Shown: positions 10,549 to 55,984 of the stretch, in pieces
How positions within the stretch are numbered: position 1 is the stretch's first letter
How the letters are laid out: every line of letters starts with the position of its first letter
NCBI GenBank assembly: GCA_017409845.1
Contig: JAFQRY010000002.1
Span: 104,940-168,939, forward strand
Reading direction: 5' to 3'
Source: Clostridia bacterium
Lineage (GTDB): Bacteria; Bacillota; Clostridia; Oscillospirales; Acutalibacteraceae
Length of the DNA stretch: 64,000 nt
Position numbers and translations under genes: made by a program
Notes under the pieces: generated by a model
Told to the model about the DNA's origin: nothing
The model's database searches: none
The model's input: only the letters and a program-made list of their open reading frames with translations

Positions 10549-11523
10549 ATGGACAAAATCTGCAAATCAATCTCCGCATTCATTCTTGCAATCATCGTTG
10601 CAATCAACGCATTCGGAAACCTGATCGGCATCGGCGACATCATCCCCACCGAGCCTGCAACAACCGTTGAAGAAACAACAACTATTCCCGAAGAAACAAC
10701 TATTCCCGAGGAAACAACAAGCCATCCCGATGATGAAGATTGGTACATGCCGACATTGGGCTACAAATACAATCAGGAAGACGGCTCTTACTACATGGAC
10801 GACAAAGACCTCTGGGTCAAAGGAACATCCTACAATGATGTTTACGATAACATTGATCAGGCAACAGCTATGTTTGTTGACCAGCTCCGAATCCGCTTCA
10901 GCTATGAAGACAAGGATTGGATGATTCAGCTCTGGAAGGGTCAGTTCGGTTTTCTTCTTGTAGGTGCGGAAACCGCTGTTTACACCGCTCCGCTCGGCAC
11001 AGTTCAAGGAGCCGAAGTTGACCAATATACGGTTGCCGAAAATGAAGACTGGCTTGATATGCAGCTCGACTGCTACTGGAGCGAAAACAACACGGGTCAC
11101 TACAAAAAAGTTTTCACAAGAGAATACGGAAAATACTGGTGGGCAACAGGCTTTGTCAAGGGTCAGCTCACAAAATATACAATGCCCCGAACCGAGCTCA
11201 AGGTAAAGCATAGAATCACCTTCAAATCCGAAGAAATGGCAAACCTCTTTGTTGAAGGGCTTAAATCTGCAGGCTTTGTAAGAACAGACGATGCAACCCA
11301 CCTTCTTGACGATTCATATTATCAGAGCGGTGCGGATGTTTATCTTCTCTGGGCAACGGTTAATCACGACAATTATAATTATGATGTTACTCCCGTGACA
11401 ACCTTGCCTGCATCAACAACACCTGCAACACATGCACCCACCACAACATCACCTGTATTCACAACAAAAAAAGCTGAATCACCGACCACCACACACCTCA
11501 ACAATTATACTGAATCATATTAA
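10549..11523 (+). CDS. Membrane-anchored DUF4474-like protein, paralogue 1 of 3
   Basis: The 324-residue protein starts with a module shared with the next two genes: an uncleaved-looking helix (residues 8-27, SISAFILAIIVAIN then GN and IGIGDIIPTEP), then an acidic Thr/Pro stalk (VEETTTIPEETT). The outer domain (about 75-275) has GTSYNDVYDN, a DWMIQLWKGQFGFLLVGAE stretch and VYTAPLG, which fits DUF4474 as I remember it; this family has no known function. A second Thr-rich tail (TTLPASTTPATHAPTTT) ends the protein. No sortase motif or lipobox is present. It is the first gene behind the consensus promoter. Confidence 0.75.
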   Translation: MDKICKSISAFILAIIVAINAFGNLIGIGDIIPTEPATTVEETTTIPEETTIPEETTSHPDDEDWYMPTLGYKYNQEDGSYYMDDKDLWVKGTSYNDVYDNIDQATAMFVDQLRIRFSYEDKDWMIQLWKGQFGFLLVGAETAVYTAPLGTVQGAEVDQYTVAENEDWLDMQLDCYWSENNTGHYKKVFTREYGKYWWATGFVKGQLTKYTMPRTELKVKHRITFKSEEMANLFVEGLKSAGFVRTDDATHLLDDSYYQSGADVYLLWATVNHDNYNYDVTPVTTLPASTTPATHAPTTTSPVFTTKKAESPTTTHLNNYTESY

Positions 11524-11549
11524 TTTTTTGAATAGAAAGGGTTATAATC

Positions 11550-12377
11550 ATGGACAATCTCTGCAAATCAATCTCCGCATTCATTCTTGCAATCATCGTT
11601 GCAATCAACGCACTCGGTAACTTCATAGGTATCGGCGATATCATCCCTACCGAACCTGCAACAACCGTTGAAGAAACCACTCTTCCCGAAGAAACTACGC
11701 TTCCTGAAGAACCCACTCTTCCCGAAGAAACCACAGCAACCGACGGCATGACTCAGGCTGAATTCGCTGCTTTCCTTAACGCTGAAACAGCTAAGGCAGC
11801 AAAGGGTTCATACAGCTTCAACAGAAATTGCTCGTACACAGCCCCCATTGACGTCGGCGATTCAACAGATGCTCTCAACAAGGTTATTCAGATGATTGAT
11901 GATAATTCAAACGTTGATACGGTTGTCGGCAGCTTCCTCGGAATCGGCACAAAGAAAGGCTCTTTCCCCGAAGATTATCTTGATGAAAGATATCAGCTTA
12001 AGGCGACAACGCTCACAGCTGATGACCTTGAAAGCTTCAGCTATGCAGACGGTGTTTACAGCTTCACTCTTGCAGATGCTTCAAATCCCAAAAAGACAGA
12101 AGCAACTCCCATTTCAAGATTCACAAACGACTTCAACACTCACGAAGAGGTTGACACAGCAATCAAGGATCAGGTAGGCAGCCTTATCAAGCTCAACAGC
12201 TCAGATGTTGACTACACAAACATCAAGGTTTCAGTTACCGTTGATGGCGGCAAGATTACAAACATTAAGTATCAGTATGATTTCGCTGCAGCTCTTCAGG
12301 TTAAGATCCTTGTCGGTAATGTCAACGGCACCGGTGCCGCTGTCACAAAGGCTGAATTCTCAGATATCGCTTATTAA
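11550..12377 (+). CDS. Membrane-anchored Thr-stalk protein, paralogue 2 of 3
   Basis: The 275-residue product repeats the anchor and stalk of the previous gene (residues 1-45 nearly identical, with four PEET/PEEP repeats) but has a different outer domain. That domain has an N-terminal helical part (QAEFAAFLNAETAKAAKGS), the segment TLTADDLESFSYADGVYSFTL, and a C-terminal beta part with VSVTVDGGKITNIKYQYDF. The same order of features appears in paralogue 3 and, more weakly, in the lipoprotein at 23857-24726, so I infer one uncharacterised domain family. It starts 26 bases after paralogue 1 and is followed by a terminator. Confidence 0.75.
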   Translation: MDNLCKSISAFILAIIVAINALGNFIGIGDIIPTEPATTVEETTLPEETTLPEEPTLPEETTATDGMTQAEFAAFLNAETAKAAKGSYSFNRNCSYTAPIDVGDSTDALNKVIQMIDDNSNVDTVVGSFLGIGTKKGSFPEDYLDERYQLKATTLTADDLESFSYADGVYSFTLADASNPKKTEATPISRFTNDFNTHEEVDTAIKDQVGSLIKLNSSDVDYTNIKVSVTVDGGKITNIKYQYDFAAALQVKILVGNVNGTGAAVTKAEFSDIAY

Positions 12378-12388
12378 TAAATGATTCT

Positions 12389-12420
12389 TCTCCGCATCCG
12401 TCAGAGGTGCGGAGATTTTT
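12389..12420 (+). terminator. Rho-independent terminator
   Basis: TCTCCGCA and TGCGGAGA form an 8-bp stem with an 11-base loop, followed by TTTTT. It separates paralogue 2 from paralogue 3. Confidence 0.75.
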
Positions 12421-12434
12421 CAACTCTTGTTTTG

Positions 12435-12463
12435 TTGACAAATCATACAAAATCTCCTATTAT
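12435..12463 (+). promoter_or_regulatory. Promoter of paralogue 3
   Basis: TTGACA and TATTAT lie 17 bases apart, with the ATG 36 bases downstream. Confidence 0.75.
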
Positions 12464-12498
12464 ATGTATAAAATCACATTTCAAAGGAAGGTATTTTT

Positions 12499-13329
12499 AT
12501 GGATAACTTCATCAAATCAATCTCCGCATTCATTCTCGCAATCATCGTTGCGATCAACGCATTCGGCAACTTCATCGGCATCGGCGACATCATTCCCACC
12601 GAGCCCGAAACAACCGTTGAAGAAACAACAACCATTCCCGAAGAAACTACCGTTACGGCAACCGAGCCTTCATCCGCTCCTTCAATAGTTGTAATGCCCT
12701 CAACAAAAGAGGAAATCGTTGATGCTTTCAATACTGCTGTTAACGCAGTCAAGACAGATGCAAAGAGCGTAAAGCATTCATATTCAAATATCAGCCTCAA
12801 CGGTTCTCCCGTTATTCCCGGCAGTGTTGACAGTATCCTCAAGCTTCTCGGAGGTGCAGAACAATTCCTCAATGATCAGCTTTCAAAAAACAGCAAGGGC
12901 GAAGAAACATATACAGGCGACCGTATTGACGCCGTTTACCCCGTTGAAGGCGAAAGCTACGCATCAAAGCTTACTGCTGAAGATGTTAAGGAAGCAACTA
13001 TCACAGAAAAAGACGGTAAGTGGATTATCACAATCAAAACCGTTGATGACGAAAAATCAGACAGCATCAAGCACGGTCAGGGTCACGCCCCCAAGGCATT
13101 CAATGTTGTTCTTCCCGGTATTGTCAACGACAATGTTCCCGCTGTCGCAGCAAGTATTGTTGGCACGGCAACAATGAATTATCCATCATCCACCTGCACA
13201 GTTACGGTTGATCCCGCAACAGGCAGAGCGGTTATTGCCGATTACTACCTTAACTGGACTATCAACTTTGATAAAGCAGGCGTTTCTATACCCTTCACAA
13301 CCAACGACTACTTCACAATTACTTACTGA
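12499..13329 (+). CDS. Membrane-anchored Thr-stalk protein, paralogue 3 of 3
   Basis: The 276-residue product again opens with the shared anchor (SISAFILAIIVAINAFGN, then IGIGDIIPTEP) and stalk (VEETTTIPEETT). The outer domain holds STKEEIVDAFNTAVNAVK, LTAEDVKEATITEKDGKWIITI and a C-terminal TCTVTVDPATGRAVIADYY strand pair, mirroring paralogue 2 at the level of pattern. AAAGGAAGG precedes the ATG. It has its own promoter, so the three paralogues can be expressed separately. Function unknown; an envelope-associated protein is inferred from the anchor. Confidence 0.75.
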   Translation: MDNFIKSISAFILAIIVAINAFGNFIGIGDIIPTEPETTVEETTTIPEETTVTATEPSSAPSIVVMPSTKEEIVDAFNTAVNAVKTDAKSVKHSYSNISLNGSPVIPGSVDSILKLLGGAEQFLNDQLSKNSKGEETYTGDRIDAVYPVEGESYASKLTAEDVKEATITEKDGKWIITIKTVDDEKSDSIKHGQGHAPKAFNVVLPGIVNDNVPAVAASIVGTATMNYPSSTCTVTVDPATGRAVIADYYLNWTINFDKAGVSIPFTTNDYFTITY

Positions 13330-18724: not shown

Positions 18725-18750
18725 AAAGAAACAAAAAAGATATGTGACAG

Positions 18751-18789
18751 ACAAGGGGTTCTGCAGGATAATCCTGCAGAACCCCTTGT
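18751..18789. terminator. Bidirectional terminator
   Basis: A near-perfect inverted repeat with 19-bp arms (ACAAGGGGTTCTGCAGGAT and its complement) around a single base, between two convergent genes. Confidence 0.8.
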
Positions 18790-18823
18790 TACAGTTTTAT
18801 ACAGTCTGTTTTACGGCTATTCA

Positions 18824-20614
18824 TTAAATCAAAACATAATCAATCGAATTTGCAACCGAATAATCATGGGCTGCGGAATTTTCTTCGCATCTTATTGTTA
18901 GGGAATCACAGCCGTCAAACGCATTATCTGCAATACTTGTGACACTTGACGGAATTGTTACGCTTGAAAGTGTTGAGCATCCTGCAAACGCCTCATCCCC
19001 TATTGTTTCCGTACCCGAAGGAAGAGAAACGGATTTGAGTGCCGTACAACCGTAAAATGCACCTATTCCGACAAGCTTCAGCGTTGACGGAAGAGAAACG
19101 GAGCCGAGCAAGGTGCAATCTGCAAATGCCTCCTGGCCTATCTGAGTAACTCCCGAAGGAAGAGAAACGGATTTCATTTCCGTGTTGCCTGCAAAAGCAC
19201 CCGCACCGATTGCGGTCACCTTATTTCCGCCGATGCTCTGAGGAATGCTGACATTCGTTTCACTGCCCGTATATTCCGTAATCACTCCGCCTGAGGTTCC
19301 GTAATTATTTTCGGGACTTGTCGTCGGTGCAACGGTTGTAGTCGGTCTGCGGGTCGTGGTCGTCTTCTGCGTTGTTTCTTCTTCGGTTGTGGTTTCTTTC
19401 TTTGTTGTGGTTATTTTTTCGGTTGTGGTCGGTGCGGTTGTTGTTACTCGCACGGTTGTTGCCCTTGTCGTTGTTTCTTTTTTGGTTGTAACAGGCTTTG
19501 TTGTCTGTTTTCTTGTTGTTTCGGTATGTGCACCGGTTGTTGATGCCGCAGTATGTGAAGCGGTCTGTGTAACCGTTTTTTCGGTTTTGCTTTCGGCTGA
19601 TGTTGACTCTTCGGTTGCTATAATTTCTGTTATAACTGCAGCAAGCGTGGTTTCCGCAACCGTGCAGGTCTCTTCGGGCATTGTTGATGCATAAGCAAGT
19701 GTAGTTTCTTTTTCTGCCTTATTATCAACATGATTTTTGATTGCTGCCGTTCCTCCGACTGCAACCGAACCTGCAACCGCTACCGCAGCAACCTTAACCG
19801 CTATTGATGTTGCAGCTGTAGCCGCTGTTCCCGTCACAGCCGAAGCAGCTGATGCTGCAGAAGCAACACCTCCTGCCGACGCCGCACCTGCACCTGCCGC
19901 AGAAGCTGCAGCAGCTCCCGTGCCTGCAGCAGCTGCCGAGGATAGAACTGCCTGAGTCAATGCAGCGGGAACCGTAACATTCTCCGCCTGAAACGCCATA
20001 AAGGAAATAAGTGCAGGAATCGCCGCAATACTGTAAAGGGTCGGATCCTTTTTACGAAGCTTATTGAATTCCTTTTCAATCTGCTTTCTGCCGTTATGCA
20101 AACGGCTTTTGACCGTTCCGAGAGGTAAATCAAGAAGCTCCGAAATTTCGCTGAGACTTTTATCCTCATAGTGAAAAAGAACGATGCATGCCCTTATTTC
20201 GGGTGAAAGCTTATCAACAACAGCTCCGATGCTTTTTCTCAGCTCCTCACGCTCCATATATTCCTGCGGAACGGGCTGATTCCATTCCTCCGAATATTCC
20301 GTGCTTTTGTTTTTCAGAAATACAATCGGAGCATTTATTCTTTTTTCTTTTTTTATGTAGTTCTTGCTCTCGTTTTCAACAATGGTTTTTACCCAGCCCT
20401 CAAACTTTTCGGGATTTTTAAGCTCATTCAGATTGAGCGAAACCTTAAGATAAACATTCTGAAGAACGTCCTCAACATCACTCGGATTTTTGAGCAGGAG
20501 GCTTGCGGTATGATATGCACTTTTGCTTGTCAGGCGGTAAAGCTCTTCAAAGGCGGTATTATCGCCTTCTCTTGCCCTGCCGACAAGTACGGAAAAATCA
20601 GCTGTTTCCTTCAT
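18824..20614 (-). CDS. ECF sigma factor fused to membrane segment, Thr stalk and LRR domain
   Basis: A 596-residue fusion. Residues 12-90 are sigma region 2 (AFEELYRLTSKSAYHTASLL, then VEDVLQNVYLKV) and 133-187 are sigma region 4 with its helix-turn-helix (SLSEISELLDLPLGTVKSRLHNGRKQ). An Ala/Gly-rich stretch (about 210-270) leads to a likely membrane helix (269-291). A Thr/Lys-rich stalk of about 130 residues follows, then BspA-type leucine-rich repeats (about 443-596; AFAGNTEMKSVSLPSG-like units). If the helix spans the membrane, the sigma part is inside and the repeats outside. AAGGAGG lies 5 bases before the ATG. It is divergent from a large LRR protein gene. The link between the two is inferred. 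Confidence 0.9.
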   Translation of the reverse strand: MKETADFSVLVGRAREGDNTAFEELYRLTSKSAYHTASLLLKNPSDVEDVLQNVYLKVSLNLNELKNPEKFEGWVKTIVENESKNYIKKEKRINAPIVFLKNKSTEYSEEWNQPVPQEYMEREELRKSIGAVVDKLSPEIRACIVLFHYEDKSLSEISELLDLPLGTVKSRLHNGRKQIEKEFNKLRKKDPTLYSIAAIPALISFMAFQAENVTVPAALTQAVLSSAAAAGTGAAAASAAGAGAASAGGVASAASAASAVTGTAATAATSIAVKVAAVAVAGSVAVGGTAAIKNHVDNKAEKETTLAYASTMPEETCTVAETTLAAVITEIIATEESTSAESKTEKTVTQTASHTAASTTGAHTETTRKQTTKPVTTKKETTTRATTVRVTTTAPTTTEKITTTKKETTTEEETTQKTTTTRRPTTTVAPTTSPENNYGTSGGVITEYTGSETNVSIPQSIGGNKVTAIGAGAFAGNTEMKSVSLPSGVTQIGQEAFADCTLLGSVSLPSTLKLVGIGAFYGCTALKSVSLPSGTETIGDEAFAGCSTLSSVTIPSSVTSIADNAFDGCDSLTIRCEENSAAHDYSVANSIDYVLI

Positions 20615-20650: not shown

Positions 20651-20679
20651 AGTATAACACAACAAAGAAATCTCTTCAA
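20651..20679 (-). promoter_or_regulatory. Promoter of the sigma-LRR gene
   Basis: TTGAAG and TATACT lie 17 bases apart on the minus strand, which looks like a housekeeping (SigA-type) rather than an ECF promoter. Confidence 0.7.
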
Positions 20680-20727
20680 TAAATATCCGGAATTTTTTCA
20701 TCATATTTCCGTCTTATTCAAAATGTA

Positions 20728-20756
20728 TTGTAAAAAATCAAAAAATACTGTATAAT
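20728..20756 (+). promoter_or_regulatory. Promoter of the large LRR surface protein
   Basis: TTGTAA and TATAAT lie 17 bases apart. The promoter is 48 bases away from that of the sigma-LRR gene, pointing the other way. Confidence 0.7.
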
Positions 20757-20787: not shown

Positions 20788-23700
20788 TTGAAAAGATCAG
20801 TTTCGATTTTTGTTGCCGCCGTTATTGCTGTCTTGCCCTTTTTTACGGGGCTTACCGGCTTTGTTCATTCCGAAGCCGCAACGGAAATTGACAACAAATG
20901 CGGCGATAATGTTACATGGAATATAAGCTCCGACGGCACACTTACCATAAGCGGAGCAGGTGAATTATATGACAGTGTCCGTCCGTGGAAACCGTTTGCT
21001 TCACAAATCAAATCCGTCGTTGTGGAAGAAGGCATAACAAGACTGGGCACATTTTCTCTTTTTGACTGCTCATCGGCAAAGAAAATTCACCTTGCCGCAT
21101 CAATCGAAGTTCTCGATTCGTTTTCGCTGCCAGACAATGTTGAAATAATCACCTTTGGCGAAAACAGTCTTCTTTCAGATGTTTACAAAGGTGCATACAG
21201 CGGCACAAAATGGTTTAAAAATCAGCCTGCGGATAAGCCTGTTTATCTCGGAAGATGTCTTGTTCAGATACCTGAAAATCAGGATTTCACATCAATTGAA
21301 ATAAAAGAGGGCACTTATGCAATCAGCGAATATGTATTCAGAAACAGCACAGTAACCGATATTGTCTTTCCCGACAGCCTGACTGCAATCGGACGCAATG
21401 TATTTGACGGCTGTGCATGGCTTGAGGCTCAGCCTGACGGTCCGGTTTATGCAGGAAATGTTTTTCTGACATACAAAGGCGTTATGCCTCTCGAAAAAAT
21501 CGATTTTGTGTTGCCCGAAGGCACCACCGGAATTGCCGGAACAGCTTTTTTTGAAAATACAATGCTCTGCACAATAAAAATCCCTGAGTCGGTCAGACAC
21601 ATAGGCGAATACGCCTTTGTAAATGCATACAACTTATATGACATCGAATTTGCAGAAAAAAGCAACCTTAAAAGTCTTGCAGAAGGTGCTTTCAGCGGGT
21701 GCAGTAAGCTCAAGGAAATAAATCTGCCGGATTCACTTGAAACAATAGGCAAATATGCCTTTTCAAGCTCAGGTTTAAGTCATATTCATATTCCAAAAAA
21801 TGCCCTGATTCATATTCATCATTTTGCCAGACTCTCACAGATCGAATCATATTCTGTTGATGAAGCAAATCCTTTCTACTGCACGGATGAACACGGTGCA
21901 CTTTACAGCAAGGATATGACGATTCTTTATTCCTTCCCTCCGTCATCGGTATATACGGAATACCATGTAAAACCCGAATGCAAAACAATCAGGGAATCGG
22001 CGTTTTCACGTTCAACAAATCTTGAAACAATCAATCTGAATTACGGACTCAAAAAAATCGAGATAAATGCATTTGAATTCTGCAAAGGTAATGTATATGT
22101 TTCTGCGACCGTGACAAATGTCAACAGCTATGCTTTATCGGATTTCAGGGGAACGGTTTATTGCTACGAAAATTCCGCAATGCATGCCGTTGCCGAAAAA
22201 TGGAGTAAGCCCTATGTTCTTCTTGACGAAGCCGTTGATGACACAAAAATCACACAGCTCATCTCTTCTGCAGAAAACACAGACCGCACTTTATATACTG
22301 TAAGCAGTCTTGAGGCTCTTGATGCTGCACTGAATGCCGTTGACCTCGAAATGACCGGTCTTACTCAGGAAAAGATTATCGAATGGGAAACCGCAATTGA
22401 AGATGCCCTCAAAAACCTTGAATATAAACCTGCCGACTATTCGGATACAGAAAAAGCAATTGCACTTGCAGAAAAAATCAACCGCTCACTTTACACACCC
22501 GAAAGTCTTGAAAGGCTTGACAGTGCGATTTCGGCAGTCGATTATGAGCTGACGGTTGACAGGCAGGCTACGGTTGAGCAATGGACAGACGATATCGAAA
22601 AAGCTCTTGATGCCCTGGAATATAAATCTGCAGATTATTCCGCAGTTAATGAACAGATAAAAAAAGCAAACGGCATTGACAGAAAATTTCATTCCGAAAT
22701 ATCTCTTGTTGCACTTGACACTGCGGTTAATGCCGTTGAATACGGTCTTGATATCACTCAGCAAGAGAAAGTGAATTCTTTCGCACAGGCAATTGCCGAT
22801 GCAATCGGCAATCTCGGATATGCCTCAGTTGTGCTCCGTCACGACGGCTGCGGAGTCATTGTTTCCGCAACAGCAAAGGAAATCAACCCCTATTCAATTC
22901 TCACCGCCGAAAAGGTTGACCCGTCAAACTACGAGGGCACTAATTTCGCCGTTGGCGGCTCGATAAGAAGCCTTCATTTCTATGATATCAACCTTGTTCT
23001 GGATAACAATAAGGTTCAGCCCGACGGTACGGTAACCGTCAAAATCAAGCTTGCAAACGGAGTTGACCCTGCAAAATGCAAGGTTTATCATGTAACCGAG
23101 GATATAGTCAATCCGCTCGTTCGCTTTGCAAGCACGATTGACGGAAACTATATTGTTTTTGAAACAACTCATTTCAGCGAATTTGCCGTTATCGAGGTTG
23201 AGACGGTGCTTGAAAGCATTGAAATCACAAATCCGCCCGCAAAAACAGACTATATTGCCGGCGAATCTCTTGACACCTCAGGCATGAAGGTTGCTGCAAA
23301 ATTCAGTGACGGTACAAGCAGGGAAATCACGGATTACACCGTCGGAATGGTAAGCCTTGACAAGGCAGGAAACTGCAAGGTGACAATTTATTACACCTTC
23401 GGCAGCATAACCAAAGCCACTGAATATGAGGTTAACGTTGCCGCAAAAGCAGTTAACGCCGATATCACGGAAAACGGAAAATCCGTTAACGCCGTCAACA
23501 AGAAGCTCGGCCTTTTCTCACTCTACAGCAGAGCGGCAATACAGCTTGACTGTATAGCAGAAAATGCCGAAGACTGCACCCTCCGCTGGTCATCCGATAA
23601 CAAAAGGGTTTTGGTTGACGAAAACGGCAGAGTTACCTGCAAGGGACTTTTCGGTGCAAAGAAAGCAAATATAACCCTTGAGGTTGTTGATGCCGACGGA

Positions 23701-23805
23701 AATGTTGTTGCAACGGACAGCGTAAGAGTTATTTTCTATAAGCTCTCATTCCAGCTTTCAAATGCGGTTTCGGTTGCAATCAATCTTGTCAAAAAGGAAT
23801 TTTAA
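20788..23805 (+). CDS. Secreted LRR/FIVAR/Ig-like surface protein
   Basis: A 1005-residue exported protein starting at TTG (GAGGTG 5 bases upstream); no better ATG is in range. Residues 1-31 are a signal peptide ending near SEAA. BspA-type leucine-rich repeats fill about 70-470 (units such as LKEINLPDSLETIGKYAFSSS). Three FIVAR-like repeats of about 65 residues follow (484-685; RTLYTVSSLEALDAAL, RSLYTPESLERLDSAI, RKFHSEISLVALDTAV). Then comes a beta domain, a Big_3-type Ig domain from about 808 (KTDYIAGESLDTSGMKV) and a last Ig-like domain with LRWSSDNKRVLVDENGRV. No sortase motif or membrane anchor is seen, so attachment is unclear. It may bind host or polymer surfaces. Confidence 0.88.
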   Translation: MKRSVSIFVAAVIAVLPFFTGLTGFVHSEAATEIDNKCGDNVTWNISSDGTLTISGAGELYDSVRPWKPFASQIKSVVVEEGITRLGTFSLFDCSSAKKIHLAASIEVLDSFSLPDNVEIITFGENSLLSDVYKGAYSGTKWFKNQPADKPVYLGRCLVQIPENQDFTSIEIKEGTYAISEYVFRNSTVTDIVFPDSLTAIGRNVFDGCAWLEAQPDGPVYAGNVFLTYKGVMPLEKIDFVLPEGTTGIAGTAFFENTMLCTIKIPESVRHIGEYAFVNAYNLYDIEFAEKSNLKSLAEGAFSGCSKLKEINLPDSLETIGKYAFSSSGLSHIHIPKNALIHIHHFARLSQIESYSVDEANPFYCTDEHGALYSKDMTILYSFPPSSVYTEYHVKPECKTIRESAFSRSTNLETINLNYGLKKIEINAFEFCKGNVYVSATVTNVNSYALSDFRGTVYCYENSAMHAVAEKWSKPYVLLDEAVDDTKITQLISSAENTDRTLYTVSSLEALDAALNAVDLEMTGLTQEKIIEWETAIEDALKNLEYKPADYSDTEKAIALAEKINRSLYTPESLERLDSAISAVDYELTVDRQATVEQWTDDIEKALDALEYKSADYSAVNEQIKKANGIDRKFHSEISLVALDTAVNAVEYGLDITQQEKVNSFAQAIADAIGNLGYASVVLRHDGCGVIVSATAKEINPYSILTAEKVDPSNYEGTNFAVGGSIRSLHFYDINLVLDNNKVQPDGTVTVKIKLANGVDPAKCKVYHVTEDIVNPLVRFASTIDGNYIVFETTHFSEFAVIEVETVLESIEITNPPAKTDYIAGESLDTSGMKVAAKFSDGTSREITDYTVGMVSLDKAGNCKVTIYYTFGSITKATEYEVNVAAKAVNADITENGKSVNAVNKKLGLFSLYSRAAIQLDCIAENAEDCTLRWSSDNKRVLVDENGRVTCKGLFGAKKANITLEVVDADGNVVATDSVRVIFYKLSFQLSNAVSVAINLVKKEF

Positions 23806-55192: not shown

Positions 55193-55984
55193 TTAGTGCT
55201 CTGCTCCGCATTCGCAGACAAGATTTTTGTCGAAGAGCTTCTGGAAGAAAAGAACAATCTTATAGAAGAAACCTTCAATTCCGCCTTTATGGCATTTGCA
55301 TTCACAATCTTTGTAAACTGCTTCTGCAGAAACATTGAAAACTCCCATTGTGAACGTTGTTTCAGAATCATAATAATCTTCGGGGGTTGCGCCTGTGATA
55401 TTCCAACAATAAAAAATCTTGCCGTCAATCTGATCTGCCGTGATTGTTACAACGTTGCCGATAACCGCACTTGAAGCAGAAGCTTTTCCGTTTATAACGC
55501 TGATATCGGTTCCGGGTGTTTCAGAATCACCGAGTTTGATTCTTATAATGCACATTGCTTTGCCGTTACTGCCATGATTATAAAGATAATATGCACTGTC
55601 GCTGGGCAGATATGAATTGAAATTATAATAGGGAATTTCTTTGCCGTCATATACAACCTTGAACTCATCAGCGGCAGGAAGCTCATAGCCGCCGATATAG
55701 AATGTTGTGAGCACATAATATTCCTTTTCGGGGTCAGCTATCTGGCCGTCGCAACTGGGAACCTCTGTTGACATGATTACCGAATAATATGGCTCCTGAT
55801 TGTAGTCAAGCGAAGGGAAGCAAGGGGTGAGGTTTGAGTTTTTGAGAGTTTCTCCGTAATAGATTGAGGGGAACTTGCTGATTTCAATAACCTTTGTTGC
55901 AGCTGATGCCGAAGTCATTGAAATGCTCATCATTGCAAAAACAGTAATGACAGCGAGCATAATTGCCGTTATTTTTTTTATCAT
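55193..55984 (-). CDS. Secreted protein with Cys/His-rich C-terminal tail
   Basis: A 263-residue exported protein: residues 1-29 are a signal peptide ending SASAA. The mature part is beta-rich and Tyr-rich with no named family. The last 35 residues are distinctive: CECKCHKGG, then an amphipathic GFFYKIVLFFQKLF, then CECGAEH. I recall similar CxCxCH...FFxKIxxFFxKLF...CxCG tails on other secreted Clostridia proteins, which suggests an uncharacterised sorting or anchoring signal. It follows the frameshifted gene by 17 bases. Confidence 0.75.
   Translation of the reverse strand: MIKKITAIMLAVITVFAMMSISMTSASAATKVIEISKFPSIYYGETLKNSNLTPCFPSLDYNQEPYYSVIMSTEVPSCDGQIADPEKEYYVLTTFYIGGYELPAADEFKVVYDGKEIPYYNFNSYLPSDSAYYLYNHGSNGKAMCIIRIKLGDSETPGTDISVINGKASASSAVIGNVVTITADQIDGKIFYCWNITGATPEDYYDSETTFTMGVFNVSAEAVYKDCECKCHKGGIEGFFYKIVLFFQKLFDKNLVCECGAEH

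Follow-up and report, generated by a model that had tools for sequence, protein, structure and literature searches.

The window, a stretch of 64,000 nucleotides of a contig from a Clostridia bacterium, carries on its minus strand a gene (18824..20614) that, according to the ORF listing, runs as one open frame from an ATG at 20614 to a stop at 18824 and encodes a protein of 596 aa. Judged by the ORF, the Pfam matches and the relatives, this protein joins an ECF sigma factor, an uncharged leash, a predicted transmembrane segment, a Thr-rich stalk and LRR_5 repeats. The sequence-only reading had given the same coordinates, and the parts it had described in one frame, namely sigma regions 2 and 4, a hydrophobic segment, a Thr stalk and BspA-type leucine-rich repeats, were all recovered by ORF, Pfam and hydropathy analysis.

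The two ends of the protein were defined by Pfam matches, all of which exceed the curated cut-offs. Sigma-70 region 2 covers aa 26-92 (20339..20539, minus strand; PF04542, Sigma70_r2, E 2.4e-8), region 4 covers aa 128-179 (20078..20233, minus strand; PF08281, Sigma70_r4_2, E 7.9e-12), and the BspA-type leucine-rich repeats cover aa 463-572 (18899..19228, minus strand; PF13306, LRR_5, E 2.4e-30). Sigma regions 1 and 3 gave no Pfam match at E 0.1. The presence of regions 2 and 4, along with the absence of regions 1 and 3, places the N-terminal part among ECF sigma factors, and the LRR_5 match places the C-terminal part among BspA-type proteins. The NCBIfam model TIGR02937 (sigma70-ECF) scores 84.9 bits against a cut-off of 42.9, and the remaining 24 models among the best 25 of 75 matches stay below their own cut-offs. 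The PDB relatives are divided in the same way: the N-terminus matches SigW (5wuq, over aa 12-184) and other ECF factors, and the C-terminus matches LRR proteins such as 4gt6 and 4fs7.

The part between these ends is built of four elements, all on the minus strand. Behind region 4 lies a Pro-containing hydrophobic motif (aa 190-212; 19979..20047), recognised in alignments and hydropathy, whose L-aromatic-small-x-x-P-like form recurs across the family, as judged by eye. It is followed by a leash rich in A/G/S/T (aa 212-273; 19796..19981), a run of 62 uncharged residues of which 81% are A/G/S/T, by a transmembrane helix predicted from hydropathy (aa 269-291; 19742..19810), and by a Thr-rich stalk (aa 300-436; 19307..19717) with 52 Thr in 137 residues (38%). 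The hydrophobic peak in simple hydropathy (aa 268-286, KD 1.88) lies close to the helix at 269-291 claimed earlier, and the stalk agrees with the roughly 130 residues expected. The Ala-rich part that had been described is present as well, but most of it turned out to be the uncharged leash ahead of the hydrophobic segment. No zinc-finger anti-sigma domain was recognised in the extension (Pfam, E 0.1), the sequence that follows region 4 is free of Cys up to the far end of the membrane helix, and no Pfam match to an RsgI domain was obtained. A strong terminator-like hairpin (19 pairs, loop of 3) at 18750-18790 separates the fused gene from a convergent MatE gene.

Conservation of the fusion and exchange of the outer ends

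The same domain order occurs elsewhere, at nine loci in 8 of the 24 other genomes of the genus that were searched (L052-L059, L129). Eight of these relatives could be aligned over their full length, being 35-64% identical to the window protein and free of internal stops; in the ninth, L059, the 5' end is cut by the contig. Clostridia MAGs of goat and sheep gut contain the nearest named relatives (L072-L074); one of these, L073, a contig of a sheep rectum MAG that covers residues 1-596, was not counted as a further genome. In the tree, the nine rows of LRR-type sigma domains are set apart from the others by a branch supported at 100/99. The tree omitted L059, L120 and L140, whose 5' ends are cut, and L137:5853; it includes five rows labelled plain, four of which are long-branched and one of which is L018:5753 with another C-terminal extension, and the soluble rows intended from L051 and L105-L107 are absent from it. 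The 81 matches in phage records all fall short of 80% coverage of the query. The genome is assembled in 35 contigs, and a frameshift, an assembly join or a chimeric contig that unites a sigma gene with an LRR gene had to be considered for this reason. However, the recurrence of the layout at nine loci in eight other genomes, with eight of the loci complete and uninterrupted, and the coherence of the LRR-type sigma domains in the tree reduce the chance of such an artefact to a negligible one, and a frameshift or assembly join was therefore excluded. The fusion is real and conserved. Since the fused order is kept in the relatives, a sensor-like end is joined to a sigma factor, as had been proposed.

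The LRR end had also been regarded as the feature that makes this protein exceptional, and this view was not upheld, since the same core carries many other ends. In the own genome of the window (2.53 Mb), five genes share the core of sigma factor, leash and putative transmembrane segment (the window gene, L062, L063, L064 and L018:1828), and two more distant sigma-transmembrane genes are found at L017 and L128. A profile of 23 family members (A2) was searched in 245 genomes of the order, the own genome included, and the core was found in at least 15 of the 244 others (E limit 1e-30; matches that extend at least to model position 225 within an uninterrupted open frame of 350 aa or more). Beyond the genus, at least 1 of 18 genomes of the own family carries it (profile A2), and, in the class as sampled, at least 8 of 244 other genomes do so (profile A2, E limit 1e-40). 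The order and class counts are lower bounds, with up to 9 candidates per genome scored with A2. L116, L123 and L126, which had been taken as order-level members, gave no family ORF, likely owing to a longer overlapping frame, and are absent from the later counts.

Six types of end with Pfam names were found on the core, i.e. LRR_5, CAP, Lipase_3, Big_2, Cu_amine_oxidN1 (partial) and WG, along with at least two unnamed ones. Several of these ends are typical of exported proteins. The first unnamed end is a small domain common to most cassettes of the genus; it gave no Pfam match in the single representative scanned (L062), and within the set of loci it has relatives in the family alone. The second, of the L018 type, measures about 430 aa and looks Ig-like by eye, and Pfam gave no match for it. 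At L118:1-3591, a fused gene with a cut 5' end combines the sigma factor with an enzyme-like end, Lipase_3. The longest uncharged run has a median length of 39 residues (range 15-78; median 83% A/G/S/T) over 57 proteins, and in some members this run is the membrane helix itself. One line possesses an untethered form: L022:2889-3515, on contig C19 of the own genome, encodes an ECF factor of 208 aa without extension that is nested in the L018-type fused clade at 100/98. This position among fused factors suggests a secondary loss of the anchor, and L022 is apparently an anchor-less derivative of the L018 type. The relatives identified by sequence thus indicate a core that recurs through the order and the class with exchanged ends, of which the window gene is one case.

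LRR partner genes and candidate promoters

Of the 38 in-genus family genes, a number that includes two 5'-cut and two distant genes, 29 are followed within 250 nt by an ORF of 170 aa or more on the same strand. LRR_5 was detected in 18 of the 21 downstream partners scanned, and those of L066, L068 and L134 carry Flg_new-type repeats and no LRR_5. Among the eight partners outside the scan, those of L018 and L137 do not resemble exported proteins, and the L059 one is a homologue of the divergent partner in the window. A hydrophobic N-terminus is present in 21 of 22 partners, the divergent gene of the window counted, compared with 148 of the 325 non-sigma ORFs at these loci, a set that contains the partners too. 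In the own genome, 4 of the 5 core genes adjoin an LRR_5 gene; the probability of this by chance is about 3e-7 to 2e-6, assuming 1800-2800 genes and 22 other LRR_5 ORFs, in a test framed after the pattern had been seen.

The window gene has no downstream partner. Instead, a divergent neighbour on the plus strand (20788..23805; 1005 aa, TTG start as listed) encodes a protein with LRR_5 and Big_3 (Pfam) and a signal-like N-terminus (hydropathy). Its match to the L055 partner extends over almost the whole length (41% over 1067 aligned positions). It also matches the partners of L056-L059 and L129, as well as divergent genes at L052 and L054, both of which are cut by the stretch ends; in L053, no match was found among those listed within the stretch examined. 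Judged from gene order, the family is genetically linked to LRR partners with predicted signal-like N-termini. Both this partner gene and the ECF-type promoter motif described below had escaped the sequence-only reading, which as a whole was supported in part.

Further proteins of these loci deserve description. Just upstream of the fused sigma gene, ten cassettes encode a small and conserved protein, some 85-100 aa long, with a core like VNLDGLHSLDISV...YAEKFDEPCNYLK (L060:7566-8000, L061:8804-9064, L062:8749-9024, L063:8759-9070, L064:9124-9447, L065:2463-2750, L066:7190-7510, L067:2300-2575, L068:6429-6725 and L070:6891-7193). It gave no Pfam match above the cut-off in the two copies scanned, and it sits behind the ECF-type promoter wherever that promoter is present. 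A Trp-rich hydrophobic tail (like WWQWIIRILLLGFLWY) ends 12 of 356 ORFs (L060-L068, L070, L135), and FFxKIIAFFRxLF-like tails occur in eight other ORFs, one of them at 55193-55984 of the window; both kinds of C-terminal tail are possibly surface-retention signals. At 10549-13329, the window contains three adjacent same-strand ORFs with near-identical hydrophobic N-termini followed by Thr-rich stretches.

The ECF-type element was read from the aligned upstream regions of ten cassettes, whose genes were also counted later. In the 700 nt ahead of the gene, RACC-N16-CGTMWWA was detected for 12 of the 36 in-genus genes, compared with 9 of 235 other ORFs at these loci (p 6e-7), a count that omits open-ended ORFs, L018:5753 and L137:5853; eight of the twelve positive genes are among those from which the motif was read, and the genes not used for it give 4/26 (p 0.03). 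The element is absent upstream of 24 of the 36 in-genus genes and of all 17 outside-genus genes scanned. A longer pattern, with TGAA added, has 9 sites in the own genome vs none for the reversed pattern, and 71 sites vs 1 over 41 genus genomes, counts that are not independent owing to near-copy genomes (G002 and G276 have the same site places, and G271 and G280 are alike). It is present in 20 of the 41 genus genomes and in 3 of the 13 high-quality ones. Four of the nine sites in the own genome precede fused-sigma genes or cassettes (L062, L063, L064 and L018). The remaining five lie ahead of genes for a transporter-like protein (L144), an HTH protein (L143), two proteins that look exported (L146, L149) and, close to one cassette, a small membrane-like protein (L147). 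L149 (contig C33:42106) resembles the outer end of the L018 sigma protein (25% over 262 aa, pairwise E 6e-8), a likeness that hints at a sensor and a target of one kind.

The ECF-type motif thus stands ahead of 4 of the 5 core genes in the own genome, the window gene being the exception: the RACC element was not found in its 700 nt upstream, and a match to a looser pattern was rejected, as it lies within the divergent coding gene. The fused gene is instead preceded by a sigmaA-like promoter candidate, TTGAAG-N17-TATACT (20651..20679, minus strand; 9/12), where 7 sites of the 9/12 type occur in the stretch vs a shuffled mean of 3.2; similar hexamers at N17 were seen by eye in five relatives. 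The partner gene has a sigmaA-like candidate of its own, TTGTAA-N17-TATAAT (20728..20756, plus strand; 10/12). A possible ECF-type promoter towards the partner, GGAA-N17-CGTCTTATT (20689..20718, plus strand), was noticed by eye. On the divergent strand of all five relatives examined (L052, L053, L054, L073, L074), GTGAAC-N17-TGTCT is present; the strict form of this pattern has a single match in each of G002, G006 and G016 and none in the own genome. The candidate in the window is therefore a weak one, since its -35 departs from that of the relatives and the strict pattern is unmatched in the own genome.

Topology and possible modes of activation

A KD peak of at least 1.5 precedes the variable end in 56 of the 57 family proteins profiled, the sole exception being L018:5753 with its different extension; L118 has a second hydrophobic peak near the C-terminus. 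In the window protein itself, aa 192-210 form a weaker hydrophobic stretch that contains Pro (KD 1.52), and a Hessa-type scale does not separate it (+4.4) from the main segment (+4.0), which makes the membrane helix a marginal one on this sum. If both segments spanned the membrane, as a hairpin of aa 192-210 and 268-286, the C-terminus would face inward, and an additional KD peak (about 1.5-1.77) near aa 192-216 in the window protein and most of its LRR-type relatives, along with one at aa 98 of the 5'-cut L059, speaks for such an arrangement. However, the stretch contains Pro, just 11 of the 54 complete proteins of the family reach a KD of 1.5 there, and no such peak is listed for the close relatives L053 and L054. 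Moreover, the distant members L017 and L128 have one clear transmembrane segment each (KD 3.2 and 3.0) before a large C-terminal part, and the CAP and Lipase_3 ends and the LRR partner with its signal-like N-terminus point outside. A cytoplasmic C-terminal part is thus very improbable, and hydropathy and the kinds of end carried lead us to infer that the C-terminus of the window protein is outside. The Thr stalk was dropped as proof of export, since its control gave 25 family ORFs and one other, a single informative ORF.

The window protein is rather probably a transmembrane ECF switch made of one protein, from which the sigma factor would be freed by proteolysis. The LRR end, possibly together with the partner, may sense a surface or polymer cue, and tethering would keep the sigma factor inactive, perhaps helped by the hydrophobic motif behind region 4. 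A first cut outside, for which signal-peptidase cleavage, as for RsiP, is a candidate, would be followed by site-2 cleavage in the Gly/Ala-rich membrane helix, which would free the sigma part. The freed factor may then transcribe genes for surface proteins, in the lineage of the window probably the divergent LRR gene. By analogy with known systems, such a release is plausible. The own genome contains a strong match to PF02163, and proteases of this family also occur in 14 of 14 control genomes; their presence therefore lends little weight to cleavage. ClpXP, if it took the released stub as with RsgI, might destroy the sigma factor. According to the part of the source available, Gly-Ala tracts are not slippery and lower ClpXP degradation of very stable substrates only (PMC9531181), so the leash as a simple slippery stop was abandoned, save in a bolder reading that we offer as tentative and doubtful. 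There, the family would be a modular one of Clostridia, with one chassis of sigma factor, leash and transmembrane segment and with interchangeable outside sensors, each driving an exported partner with the same kind of domain (an LRR sigma with an LRR partner, the L018 sigma and its unnamed end with L149, which looks exported and follows a matching promoter motif); the cell would in this way monitor its own surface layer. In this reading, the leash rich in Gly and Ala would act as a degradation stop that lets Clp trim the stub and spares the sigma factor.

Membrane-bound one-component regulators of the CadC/ToxR type are familiar, and the sigma factor may likewise work from the membrane without cleavage, its long flexible leash reaching RNA polymerase. 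The uncharged run, 62 residues long here and of median length 39 over 57 proteins, would give such reach, and the extension lacks an anti-sigma domain recognised by Pfam. Tethered activation is nevertheless unlikely, as the membrane-fused ECF factors described in the sources available act once released, which was shown for IutY and proposed for ECF52; the untethered L022 also runs counter to it, but does not decide how tethered forms act. Control by conformation, in which the Pro-containing motif behind region 4 clamps the sigma factor until the LRR end is bound or pulled and the factor is thereby unlocked uncut, would agree with the retention of this motif in the genus and in other families of the order while the remaining leash drifts, as judged by eye. 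A long flexible leash and a Thr stalk would, however, be poor transmitters, and this possibility appears more distant still. Proteolytic release of a membrane-held sigma factor therefore remains our preferred reading.

ECF signalling is usually drawn as a sigma factor and a separate membrane anti-sigma factor. With sensor, membrane passage and sigma factor in one chain, with many different ends and with candidate promoters, this family would be a compact test bed for sensing in gut Clostridia. It could show how membrane-fused sigma factors that have no recognised anti-sigma domain come to be released and what role BspA-type proteins play, and its chassis is directly testable and open to study with swapped sensors in harmless laboratory hosts.

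Comparison with known systems

The joining of a sensor to a sigma factor, uninterrupted and conserved as it is here, is not unprecedented. The statements below follow the parts of the cited papers that were available. Membrane-fused ECF factors are known as ECF48, ECF52 and ECF53 in Actinobacteria, as some members of ECF36, and as IutY (PMC5826349, PMC8999054), and C-terminal extensions occur in many ECF groups (PMC8103513). ECF52, described as exclusive to Actinobacteria, has a carbohydrate-binding end, and proteolytic release has been proposed for SCO4117 (PMC5826349, PMC8999054). For IutY, release of the fused factor through cuts by Prc and RseP is proven (PMC8999054). Among separate sensors, RsgI of Clostridium thermocellum is acted on by RseP and ClpXP (PMC12203970), and RsiP is cut at site 1 by signal peptidase (PMC8844934).

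As far as these sources describe them, ECF52 and ECF53 (SCO4117) resemble the window protein in plan, with an ECF sigma factor, a transmembrane region, a low-complexity stalk and a binding domain in one chain, a likeness of hydropathy and composition in which the topology of the window protein is a predicted one. They differ in having a zinc finger between the sigma factor and the membrane, where none was found here, a Pro-rich stalk instead of the Thr-rich stalk and A/G/S/T-rich leash, and a carbohydrate-binding module instead of LRR_5; they belong to Actinobacteria, whereas the relatives of the window protein are Clostridia MAGs with a linked LRR partner gene. IutY (ECF243) of Pseudomonas putida is likewise an ECF factor fused at its C-terminus to a membrane-bound part, but it serves cell-surface signalling for aerobactin and its extension is anti-sigma-like, which was not recognised here. 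SigI/RsgI, in the parts of the literature available, share a transmembrane sensor, several paralogs per genome for different substrates and an RseP cut in the membrane, whereas sigma factor and sensor are separate proteins there and the window protein is one chain with an ECF sigma factor and no RsgI domain match. BspA-type LRR surface proteins share the LRR_5 end, and LRR_5 and Big_3 with the partner, and the solved chains among the matches listed (4gt6, 4fs7) have no sigma part. In the literature searched, no description of the Clostridia family was found; the ECF groups of Casas-Pastor 2021, which may include it, were outside that scope. The family differs from the known fused ECF factors in its lineage, in having no recognised zinc-finger anti-sigma domain, in its leash, in the range of its ends and in its partner. 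The principle of a fused ECF factor therefore has precedent, and what is unusual is the exchange of ends, the missing anti-sigma domain, the LRR partner and the candidate promoters.
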